Positions 6,979 through 8,728 of a stretch of DNA of 64,000 bases are shown here, in pieces. The notes below the pieces were generated by a model. That model was not told the origin of the DNA. It made no database searches and saw nothing but the letters and a program-made list of their open reading frames with translations. Made by a program: the position numbers and the translations under genes. Numbering within the stretch: position 1 is the first letter of the stretch; the number at the start of each line of letters is the position of its first letter. The stretch spans positions 2,983,501 through 3,047,500 of the forward strand of contig NZ_CP136187.1 of NCBI RefSeq assembly GCF_033193315.1. Reading direction: 5' to 3'. The DNA comes from Agathobaculum sp. NTUH-O15-33 (GTDB taxonomy: Bacteria; Bacillota; Clostridia; Oscillospirales; Butyricicoccaceae).

Positions 6979-7028
6979 GATCGTTCCCTCCCGTTTCTTT
7001 TCTTTCAGTATACTGCATGGAAACAAGC

Positions 7029-7057
7029 TTGACAACCTTTGACGGGTACGCTATACT
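7029..7057 (+). promoter_or_regulatory. Consensus sigma-A promoter of the ABC-F gene
   Basis: TTGACA (7029-7034), a 17-nt spacer and TATACT (7052-7057). The predicted start near 7064 gives a leader of about 190 nt before the ABC-F start codon. Confidence 0.85.
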
Positions 7058-7088
7058 GTGCTTATTCAAAATGATTTGAGGTGGAAAG

Positions 7089-7097
7089 ATGAAGTAA
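7089..7097 (+). CDS. Two-codon leader ORF (Met-Lys-stop) of the ABC-F attenuator
   Basis: ATG AAG TAA is preceded by GAGGTGG (7078-7084) with a 4-nt gap, an excellent ribosome-binding site for such a short frame. It lies about 25 nt from the predicted transcript start. Minimal leader ORFs are known ahead of several ABC-F antibiotic-resistance genes, where drug-stalled ribosomes switch the leader RNA. The segment starting at its stop codon (7097-7106) can pair with the antiterminator strand downstream. Confidence 0.6.
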   Translation: MK

Positions 7098-7252
7098 GCA
7101 TTCTTGTGAGGTTGTTTGGCGGGCAAACCGTTTGGTTTGTCATGCCTACCTGCAAGAAAGCTTCTTTCATCCGCCCACTGCTTCAGCGCTTCCATGCGCC
7201 GGACAGGGCTTTGCTTTCTTGCACCCGTTTGGTAATTGGAGGTGCATTTTTT
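7097..7252 (+). promoter_or_regulatory. Ribosome-mediated transcription attenuator of the ABC-F gene
   Basis: Four segments can form exclusive pairs. Segment 1 (AGCATTCTTG, 7097-7106) pairs with segment 2 (CAAGAAAGCT, 7153-7162) with one mismatch. Segment 2 extended (TGCAAGAAAGC, 7151-7161) pairs perfectly over 11 bp with segment 3 (GCTTTCTTGCA, 7213-7223). Segment 3 shares TGCA with the 5' arm of a terminator, TGCACC (7220-7225)/GGTGCA (7241-7246), followed by T6 (7247-7252). The 3' arm also carries the GGAGG of the ABC-F gene. A ribosome held on the leader ORF would cover segment 1, free 2 to pair with 3, and allow read-through. Confidence 0.75.
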
Positions 7253-8728
7253 ATGTCTATGATTCAAATATCCGACCTGACCTTTGGCTATGAAGGCAGC
7301 GCGGAAACCATTTTCGACCATATTTCACTCCGTCTCGACACGGACTGGCGACTCGGCCTGATCGGCCGCAACGGCCGCGGCAAAACCACGTTTTTGAACC
7401 TTTTGCGCGGCCAATTTGAATATCAGGGACGCATTACCGCGTCTGTTTCGTTTGAGTACTTCCCGTTTCCCATCGCGAGACCCGAACGGCCCGCGCGCGA
7501 AGCCGTGCTGCCCCTGTGCCCGGAGGAAGAAAGCTGGCGGCTTGCCCTCGAGATGAACCGGCTGGCGCTGTCCGAAGAACTGCTGGGCCGCCCCTTTTCC
7601 ACGCTTTCCGGCGGGGAACAGGTGCGGCTGCTGCTTGCCGCCCTGTTCTGCCGGGAAGACCGTTTTCTGCTCATTGACGAACCGACCAACCACCTCGATC
7701 AGGCGGGCCGCGCGCTGGTGGCGGAGTATTTACGCGGTAAATCCGGCTTTCTGCTGGTCTCGCACGACCGCACTTTTCTGGACGGCTGCATCGACCATGT
7801 GCTGTCCATCAACCGGGCGAACATTGAACTGACGCAGGGCGACTTTTCCACGTGGTGGGAAAACAAGCGGCGGCGGGATGAATGGGAACAAGCGGAAAAC
7901 GAACGGCTGAAGGGCGATATCCGCCGCCTTGACGCGGCCGCGCGACGCGCTTCGCAGTGGTCGGATAAGACTGAAAAGGAAAAGCATGTGCGGAATTCCG
8001 GCCTGCGGCCCGATCGCGGCTATATCGGCCACAAGGCGGCCAAAATGATGCAGCGCTCCAAATCCATAGAAGCGCGCAAGCACGCCGCGGCGGAGGAAAA
8101 GGCGGGACTGCTGCACAACATTGAAAGCGCCGACGCCTTGAAGCTTTCTCCCCTTTCCTACCGCGCCGAACGGCTGGCCGAGCTGCGGCAGGTAGCCGTC
8201 CGCTTTGGGGAAAAAACCGTTTGCAGCGATATCACGTTTTCGGTTACGCGCGGCGCGCGCATAGCCCTTATGGGGGCCAACGGTTCGGGCAAATCCTGCC
8301 TTTTAAAGCTGCTTTGCGGCGAGGATATCCCGCACGCCGGCGTTTGCAGCCGAGGCAGCGGTCTTACGATCTCCTACGTGCCGCAGGACGCTTCCTTCCT
8401 CTCCGGCGGCCTGACCGAATACGCCGCGCGCTGCGGCGTCGACCGGACGCTGTTTCTCGCGATCCTGCGCAAGCTGGATTTTTCCCGCGCGCAGTTTGAA
8501 ACGGATATGGCGCTTTACAGCGAGGGGCAGAAAAAGAAGGTGCTGCTCGCACGCAGCCTGTGCGAGCGCGCCCACCTTTATATCTGGGATGAGCCCTTAA
8601 ACTATATCGACCTTTTCTCCCGCATTCAGTTGGAAGAGCTGATCGCCGCATACCGGCCCACGCTGCTGTTTGTCGAGCATGACCGCAGCTTCTGCGACCA
8701 CATCGCGACCGAGACCGTCCGTTTGTGA
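7253..8728 (+). CDS. ABC-F ribosomal-protection ATPase, Lsa/CplR type
   Basis: A 491-residue cytosolic protein with two ABC ATPase domains and no membrane segment. NBD1 has Walker A GRNGRGKT (38-45), signature LSGGEQ and Walker B LLIDEPTNHLD. A charged linker (about 190-310) separates it from NBD2, with Walker A GANGSGKS, a degenerate signature YSEGQ and IWDEPLNYIDLFSR, which is characteristic of the Lsa/Vga/CplR group. Family members displace lincosamides, streptogramin A and pleuromutilins from the ribosomal exit site. ATG 7253 sits 10 nt after GGAGG inside the attenuator terminator. The upstream open frame to 7058 is leader RNA. Actual resistance is inferred. Confidence 0.9.
   Translation: MSMIQISDLTFGYEGSAETIFDHISLRLDTDWRLGLIGRNGRGKTTFLNLLRGQFEYQGRITASVSFEYFPFPIARPERPAREAVLPLCPEEESWRLALEMNRLALSEELLGRPFSTLSGGEQVRLLLAALFCREDRFLLIDEPTNHLDQAGRALVAEYLRGKSGFLLVSHDRTFLDGCIDHVLSINRANIELTQGDFSTWWENKRRRDEWEQAENERLKGDIRRLDAAARRASQWSDKTEKEKHVRNSGLRPDRGYIGHKAAKMMQRSKSIEARKHAAAEEKAGLLHNIESADALKLSPLSYRAERLAELRQVAVRFGEKTVCSDITFSVTRGARIALMGANGSGKSCLLKLLCGEDIPHAGVCSRGSGLTISYVPQDASFLSGGLTEYAARCGVDRTLFLAILRKLDFSRAQFETDMALYSEGQKKKVLLARSLCERAHLYIWDEPLNYIDLFSRIQLEELIAAYRPTLLFVEHDRSFCDHIATETVRL

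Follow-up and report, generated by a model that had tools for sequence, protein, structure and literature searches.

The window analyzed here is a 64,000-nucleotide stretch of the genome of Agathobaculum sp. NTUH-O15-33 (contig NZ_CP136187.1, positions 2,983,501 to 3,047,500), in which an Lsa-like gene of the ARE-ABCF family is preceded by a leader containing a two-codon open reading frame (ORF), Met-Lys-stop. Comparison with relatives and folding models indicate, with a probability that we put at roughly 0.8, that this region is a ribosome-sensing dual attenuator acting on transcription and translation as a kinetic switch. Without drug, ribosomes would quickly complete the two-codon leader, which would refold into a hairpin between segments 1 and 2 (1:2) that occupies segment 2; a terminator at the ABC-F start codon would stop most transcripts and mask the ABC-F Shine-Dalgarno (SD) sequence in those that escape. 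With an inducer, which the Lsa-like protein and published relatives suggest would be a lincosamide, pleuromutilin or streptogramin A, a ribosome held on the leader AUG would cover the 5' side of the 1:2 hairpin, and the emerging segment 3 would be captured by segment 2 (2:3), delaying the terminator and allowing the gene to be transcribed and translated. The placement of the start codon with respect to the pairing segment, rather than the peptide, would carry the information, and leader length would have drifted from nine codons to one. The features are as follows, where L numbers denote loci and A1 is a genus alignment of seven sequences (window, L010, L011, and L081-L084).

7029-7034 (-35 TTGACA) and 7052-7057 (-10 TATACT), + strand: sigma-70-type promoter, spacer 17, 11 of 12 consensus matches
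7078..7083, + strand: leader SD GAGGTG, invariant in A1
7089..7097, + strand: leader ORF ATG-AAG-TAA (Met-Lys-stop), ATGAAGTAA; MK or MR also in L010, L011, L081-L084, and L108
7080..7112, + strand: segment 1, the 5' arm of the anti-antiterminator hairpin, core TTCTTG at 7101-7106 (folding, inverted repeat)
7148..7179, + strand: 3' arm of the anti-antiterminator hairpin, which includes segment 2 (folding, inverted repeat)
7151..7161, + strand: segment 2, TGCAAGAAAGC, pairs with segment 3
7213..7223, + strand: segment 3, GCTTTCTTGCA, antiterminator partner of segment 2 (perfect complement, folding, alignment)
7186..7252, + strand: intrinsic terminator with the best fold, 7186-7194 paired to 7237-7245 below an upper stem, then T6 at 7247-7252 (minimum energy)
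7220..7246, + strand: alternative terminator or SD-sequestering stem from the first-pass annotation, 7220-7225 with 7241-7246 (alignment pairing)
7238..7244, + strand: ABC-F SD GGAGGTG, within the terminator 3' arm (sequence, folding)
7253..8728, + strand: Lsa-like ARE-ABCF gene, 491 amino acids (NCBIfam models, nearest solved relative)

The first-pass annotation had listed a consensus promoter, a near-ideal leader SD, and a Met-Lys-stop ORF together with three pairings (1:2, 2:3, and 7220-7225 with 7241-7246 followed by T6), and all of these are present in the sequence. The leader from 7064 to 7252 folds at -79.7 kcal/mol versus a shuffled mean of -53.7 (z -5.8), a value equaled by 0 of 200 shuffles. 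An inverted repeat of 26 nt (77%) joins 7081-7106 to 7153-7178, and the 2:3 helix (7151-7161 with 7213-7223) is a perfect 11 bp. The 1:2 pairing had been drawn too short, as 7097-7106 with 7153-7162, when the hairpin spans about 7080-7112 with 7148-7179. The proposed overlap of the ORF with segment 1 is real, though it amounts to one base only as originally drawn; the full hairpin covers the ORF and encloses the leader's own SD, start codon, and reading frame. Two traits of the published vmlR and cplR attenuators (PMC9226507, PMC10201436; published systems are described here from the available parts of the cited papers) are found in the window: an SD-led short ORF upstream of an ARE-ABCF gene and, in silico, an anti-antiterminator 5' hairpin that includes this ORF. 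A second dipeptide-like frame, ATG-ATT-TGA at 7071, was discarded, as it shows no SD and is present in just two of the seven aligned sequences.

Two candidate terminator stems share most of their 3' arm, where the ABC-F SD lies. A 6-bp stem closing a 15-nt loop (7220-7225:7241-7246) had been put forward as the terminator; the minimum-energy stem is instead 7186-7194:7237-7245 with its upper stem, so the 6-bp stem was rejected as the sole terminator and retained as an alternative. Across the seven genus sequences, 90.5% of the cells of the long lower stem are paired, and one of its pairs has changed on both sides; the figures for its upper helices are 32.1%, 61.9%, and 90.5%. For the 6-bp stem the figure is 97.6%, with zero compensatory change. 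RNAalifold, unaided, recovers the buried-leader hairpin and the long terminator. The cplR layout, with the gene's SD carried in the terminator stem, is therefore seen in the window, and comparison and folding agree with the earlier claims that the ABC-F SD lies in the terminator 3' arm and that 2:3 and the terminator exclude each other. The broader claim, that a ribosome-sensing attenuator with exclusive pairings precedes the ABC-F gene, is likewise supported by comparison and folding, in simulation for the growing window transcript but not at full-length equilibrium, and with the extent of 1:2 and the terminator stem redrawn.

A hairpin over 7238-7244 could also act on translation only, hiding the ABC-F SD, with the T-run incidental and no real termination. 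Consistent with this, L010 from the same genus has a canonical terminator upstream plus an SD-covering hairpin without a T-run, and neither window stem was among the hits of a simple terminator scan restricted to loops of 3-8 nt. We nevertheless consider control of translation alone unlikely: a run of five or six T directly follows the stem in six of the seven genus sequences, and cplR, with the same layout, terminates at the gene's start codon (PMC10201436). Because L010 has its separate terminator, as do L108, L105, L092, L099, and L093 as judged by eye, the comparison suggests that the window's terminator at the start codon is a later compaction.

Turning to the antiterminator, 90.9% of the 77 cells of the 2:3 helix in A1 are paired, versus 41.6-56.3% in slid controls, and two pairs of the helix have changed on both sides (GCAAG to GCAGG in segment 2, CTTGC to CCTGC in segment 3). 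Its covariation score was reached by 7 of 500 shuffles and its percentage paired by 17 of 500. The repressed-state structure of the window is paired in 74.4% of cells versus 40.2-53.0% when slid. We then folded growing transcripts with positions -20 to +15 around the AUG masked as a ribosome. In the window, the probability of the 2:3 helix, P(2:3), is 0.00 without a ribosome and 0.92-0.94 with the AUG mask until the terminator 3' arm emerges. Moving the 3' edge of the mask to +8 gives 0.89, and +10 or more gives at least 0.93; masks placed between -10 and +30 give 0.75-0.98, and a ribosome-sized mask at least 40 nt downstream gives 0.00. Among seven other dipeptide sequences, L082 and L108 simulate like the window.

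Several results weigh against the attenuator as proposed. At full length, with a masked ribosome in place, 2:3 is still less stable than the terminator in the window; since the terminator wins at equilibrium, the switch would have to be kinetic. In the simulations L011 fails to form 2:3 (0.03 or less), L081, L083, and L084 form it at one late length only (0.88-0.91), and L010 is intermediate (0.15-0.77). The covariation rests on just seven related sequences, 74 of 500 shuffles match the number of 2:3 pairs changed on both sides, and the slid control at +1 scores as high as 2:3 (0.225 vs 0.208). Covariation in homologues, which the first-pass annotation had named as a check, is accordingly divided: 2:3 is kept with compensatory changes in the seven sequences, while in the same alignment the repressed state does not exceed shuffles (103 of 500).

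Among 25 genus genomes, 11 hold an ABC-F match at E 1e-100. The two-codon leader is kept in the closest relatives, appearing in all eight genus loci at 69-100% ABC-F identity (7 of 7 distinct leaders); of three loci at 54-56% identity, L087 and L088 carry MINFSCK and L086 shows no leader. We extended the comparison to 104 Lsa-like loci (70 from genome contigs plus the genus and family loci, three duplicates removed) with a script that seeks an SD, a start, a TTTCTTGC-like core ending about +12 to +28 from the start, and the core's complement. It called the element in 80 loci; among the 24 uncalled, a leader with a diverged core can be seen by eye in several (such as L049, L056, L062, and L096) and no leader in others (such as L030, L071, L048, L075, and L086). 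Setting aside L009 (same species as the window) and the spurious L031 and L072 leaves 77 rows, in which an AUG-stop reading was taken over a higher-ranked longer start in L026 and L065, and L013 and L014 also have a GTG alternative. Counted from the first base of the start, the core ends at +15 (5 rows), +16 (6), +17 (5), +18 (49), +19 (4), +20 (4), or +21 (4), and the leaders have 1 (9 rows), 2 (8), 3 (4), 5 (6), 6 (32), 7 (16), 8 (1), or 9 (1) codons. By this comparison, the position of the start codon is conserved while the leader peptide varies, down to apparent AUG-stop leaders.

Dipeptide leaders occur in the window, L010 (MR), L011, L081-L084, and L108, the last from another genus of the family, so that the dipeptide, SD, and start-to-core distance are retained in eight distinct leaders over two genera. 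In a midpoint-rooted FastTree phylogeny of 102 of the 104 ABC-F proteins (L076 and L078 were omitted as short), the window clade (support 0.999) is placed among hexapeptide relatives (MKHTSC, MFTTSC, MRHISR, and MRHFSC), which makes the dipeptide look derived. L108 is placed with weak support (0.70 and 0.43), compatible with one or two dipeptide origins. Upstream of lsa, L072 reads ATA-CGC-AAC-TTA-TCC-TGC-TAA, apparently a leader of the MRNLSC type whose start codon is replaced by AUA. In addition, further short ORFs stand upstream of lsa in L025, L031, L073, L088, L251, and L253. In the Clostridium loci and L088 such a second ORF (e.g., MKIEDTLLTHDILHIEPVTFGDANME) separates the attenuator from lsa; a related short ORF (MVLELDVTHELLRI...) precedes lsa(B), and lsa(E) likewise carries a short ORF with a GTG start at this place. 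This second ORF is possibly a separate leader type.

A covariance model (R1) was built from 48 training sequences, including the window and several Paenibacillaceae, whose own scores are no test because they belong to the training set. In the window's genome R1 has one significant place (E 6.4e-9), the next being its reverse strand (E 3.4), and L011, outside the training set, is recovered at E 2.8e-7. Of 394 genomes of the order, 71 have an R1 match; in the family around Paenibacillus tepidiphilus the count is 214 of 394. An Lsa-like gene lies beside the element in 46 of 50 order loci (L121-L170), counting L125, whose contig ends within the gene, although this is not an independent rate because at least 11 of the 50 were already in the 104-locus set chosen for Lsa. 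In one exception, L148 (1501-1624, - strand), the leader MIYVSC and a terminator that looks strong by eye stand before an apparent ABC exporter gene, not an ABC-F gene; the others are an unrelated secreted protein with no terminator seen (L154), a decayed lsa-like stretch (L157), and a contig end (L151). Three plasmid records were read of 141 with a match. Plasmid lsa(E) of Enterococcus faecalis (L251) has the element with the leader MYNFSC (E 2.8e-14 in a search of 9,195 bases) and a terminator seen by eye, a Paenibacillus urinalis plasmid has an AUG-UGA version (E 5.5e-8), and R1 found no match in the lsa(B) plasmid record. Release 15 of Rfam returned no family over the window at gathering score, none over 7000-7300 at E up to 1, and none at gathering score in the leaders of ten relatives. 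As judged from these matches, a single element is common to Lsa-like genes across Bacillota; its leaders have one to nine codons, and its core ends at +15 to +21.

The shortest leaders were found on the Bacilli side, in 76 elements that all differ over 105 bases: 70 from genomes of the Paenibacillus tepidiphilus family (mostly best-scoring matches, some skipped) and six others (five from four Paenibacillus genomes, one from Shimazuella). The start was taken as the ATG nearest the core, leaving longer alternatives unweighed (in-frame upstream ATGs in L176 and L240, an upstream ATG in L237). On this rule 57 of the 76 have a stop as the codon right after AUG (TAA 25, TAG 22, TGA 10), which is not a random-sample rate because the elements are mostly best-scoring matches. 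Fifteen have five codons, and the others are MWNFLADFIK, MWNFLANI, GTG-AAG-TAA (L220), and ATG-GAG-TAA (L250, read by eye in preference to the script's 38-residue ORF from a later ATG). Downstream lies an Lsa-like gene in 71, a Cfr-like gene in 3, and neither in 2 (L204, at a contig end, and L208, whose MWNFLADFIK leader has no Lsa-like or Cfr-like gene within the searched downstream stretch). The three Cfr-like loci (L176 at 1501-1606 on the - strand, L199, and L241) are all AUG-stop, each an attenuator with an AUG-UAA leader ahead of a gene that we take, from the look of its translation, to be a Cfr/RlmN-like radical-SAM gene; these genes are 74-100% identical to that of L176. L176 shares its genome, that of Paenibacillus albiflavus, with L015, whose own lsa leader is AUG-UAA as well.

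In 12 hand-picked elements of the 76 (10 AUG-stop and 2 five-codon), masking the AUG abolishes 1:2 in all 12 and shifts the segment 1 complement onto the terminator 3' arm; terminator pairing at the last length falls from 1.28-1.40 to 0.00-0.11 on the script's scale. The SD of the AUG-stop leaders lies 12 nt from the AUG, counted from GGRG, in 43 of 57, and at an ordinary 9 nt in L222 and L229. The long spacing raised AUA as the true start of this group, which was rejected, as AUA is absent in L192, L193, L199, L222, L229, and L248. Codon 2 faces GTTAC in the hairpin, where by our reading wobble tolerates TAA, TAG, TGA, and TGG alike. Among T-purine-purine second codons TGG is seen twice beside the three stops, and the two-sided Fisher p is 0.098, uncorrected for kinship, so direct selection for a stop after AUG is not borne out; wobble pairing without selection for stopping could be the source of the pattern, which weakens the AUG-stop reading. 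AUG-stop is plausible as a sensor and, by these sequence matches, widespread. We put somewhat below even odds the fuller proposal that the leader has been reduced to AUG-stop in Paenibacillaceae and some neighbors (Shimazuella, perhaps Brevibacillus), with an initiating ribosome holding a stop in its A site serving as the sensor before any peptide bond is made. The same zero-elongation switch would then serve Lsa-like and Cfr-like genes, and the window's dipeptide would be a parallel step, showing the coding part to be dispensable for initiation-blocking drugs.

These leaders bear on the idea of the peptide as sensor, in which the ribosome would be stalled by one particular nascent chain, as happens with macrolide leaders. 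Most leaders of at least five codons finish in -SC, -SCK, or -SCR before the stop, the alternative starts in L013, L014, L026, and L065 would read into the core, and in vmlR an MRK variant induces less well than MIN (PMC9226507). The -SC codons are, however, the pairing core itself, and they go unread in 19 of 19 out-of-frame rows (+16, +17, +19, and +20); the window leader has only two residues, and AUG-stop leaders make up 57 of the 76 Bacilli elements if the start closest to the core is used. The out-of-frame cores and AUG-stop leaders led us to reject peptide-specific stalling as a general mechanism, and as the explanation of the window we regard a peptide sensor as very improbable. It is similarly hard to credit that ATG-AAG-TAA is incidental to a structured 5' hairpin that answers to another signal, for instance a metabolite or pausing of RNA polymerase. 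Part of the conservation of the SD, start, and stop follows from pairing alone, since all three sit in a strongly paired arm, and the Bacilli AUG-stop codons fit wobble pairing. Yet the SD-start spacing, the ATG, and the start-to-core distance are kept while the hairpin loop and outer parts vary greatly, the Bacilli elements precede Lsa-like or Cfr-like genes in all but L204 and L208, and neither the window nor the ten relatives match Rfam.

Published systems place the ribosome-sensing attenuator in context. In Bacillus subtilis, vmlR has the leader MIN, for which initiation is essential and a start-codon toeprint lies at +16 (PMC9226507). It resembles the design predicted for the window in its tiny leader that needs initiation and in its anti-antiterminator, antiterminator, terminator, and SD-hiding hairpin, but has three codons, a separate terminator and SD hairpin, and demonstrated NusG-dependent pausing (PMC9226507). 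The cplR leader of Clostridioides difficile, MR[I/M], lies under a hairpin, with termination at the gene's start codon and the SD in the terminator, a layout that has experimental support (PMC10201436). Shared with the window are a short ORF buried in a 5' hairpin, a terminator that ends at the start codon, a stem that hides the SD, and an ABC-F of the type protecting against pleuromutilins, lincosamides, and streptogramins A (PLSA), while cplR differs in its three codons versus MK or MR in the window clade and in encoding the ARE1 protein CplR rather than an Lsa-like one (PMC10201436). The same source gives MK[L/Q] for VmlR2 and, as a uORF4u prediction at an 80% identity cut-off, MAGN for LsaA, which likewise precedes an Lsa-family ABC-F but has four codons (PMC10201436). 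By the covariance model, the plasmid lsa(E) attenuator is the same element as the window's, with six codons instead of two.

In the ARE5 group, start-codon inhibition by drugs is seen in toeprints of the MLV and MVGDDDISG leaders (PMC12421871). Removal of uORF2 of lmrC gives constitutive expression, the opposite of vmlR (PMC8546547), and hflXr has a 14-residue RLR leader (PMC6310831). In Arabidopsis, ribosomes stall at the start-then-stop AUGUAA element of NIP5;1 in response to boron (PMC11915504), which recalls the Bacilli AUG-stop leaders in both the start-stop arrangement and stalling by a small molecule, although it is eukaryotic and unrelated and acts through mRNA decay (PMC11915504). AUG-stop leaders would be skipped by uORF4u defaults, because the minimum is nine nucleotides (PMC10219788). 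In the available parts of the open-access literature, mostly without subscription papers, we found no bacterial two-codon or AUG-stop antibiotic leader. The earlier description of the dipeptide as strikingly minimal was an overstatement, since published ARE-ABCF leaders already have three to four codons (MIN, MR[I/M], MAGN), and going from known tripeptides to a dipeptide is in itself a small step. The leader region of the window is a well-supported variant of the vmlR/cplR attenuators, its predicted mechanism matching vmlR and especially cplR.

The window ABC-F product is a two-domain protein of 491 amino acids. It scores 440.1 bits against the general ribosomal-protection model NF000355 of NCBIfam (cut-off 380) and 664.6 bits against the Lsa family model NF000167, below the curated cut-off of 750, and is for this reason named Lsa-like. 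The closest solved structure by sequence is Lsa(A) (7nhk). The ABC-F of L009 (Butyricicoccus faecihominis) is 98% identical to it, with a leader identical over 200 compared bases. Divergent promoters with overlapping -35 boxes lie at window positions 7007-7057, TTGACA at 7029-7034 on the + strand and TTGTCA at 7035-7030 on the - strand, the latter paired with TATACT at 7012-7007. The minus-strand promoter faces a gene on the - strand that, from the look of its translation, is presumably polysaccharide-deacetylase-like.

Taken across the element, these comparisons suggest that the sensor can be reduced to a start codon with a stop directly behind it, a ribosome caught starting then being the signal. 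If this is true, the leader peptide and the leader ribosome, which are usually treated together, become separable ideas, and leaders of 1, 2, 3, 5, 6, and 7 codons on one RNA scaffold offer a natural series on how much peptide PLSA sensing needs. Leader-ORF searches with a three-codon minimum could then miss part of the inducible resistance repertoire, and the mobile lsa(E) attenuator would belong to a widespread element for which we found no matching Rfam family.

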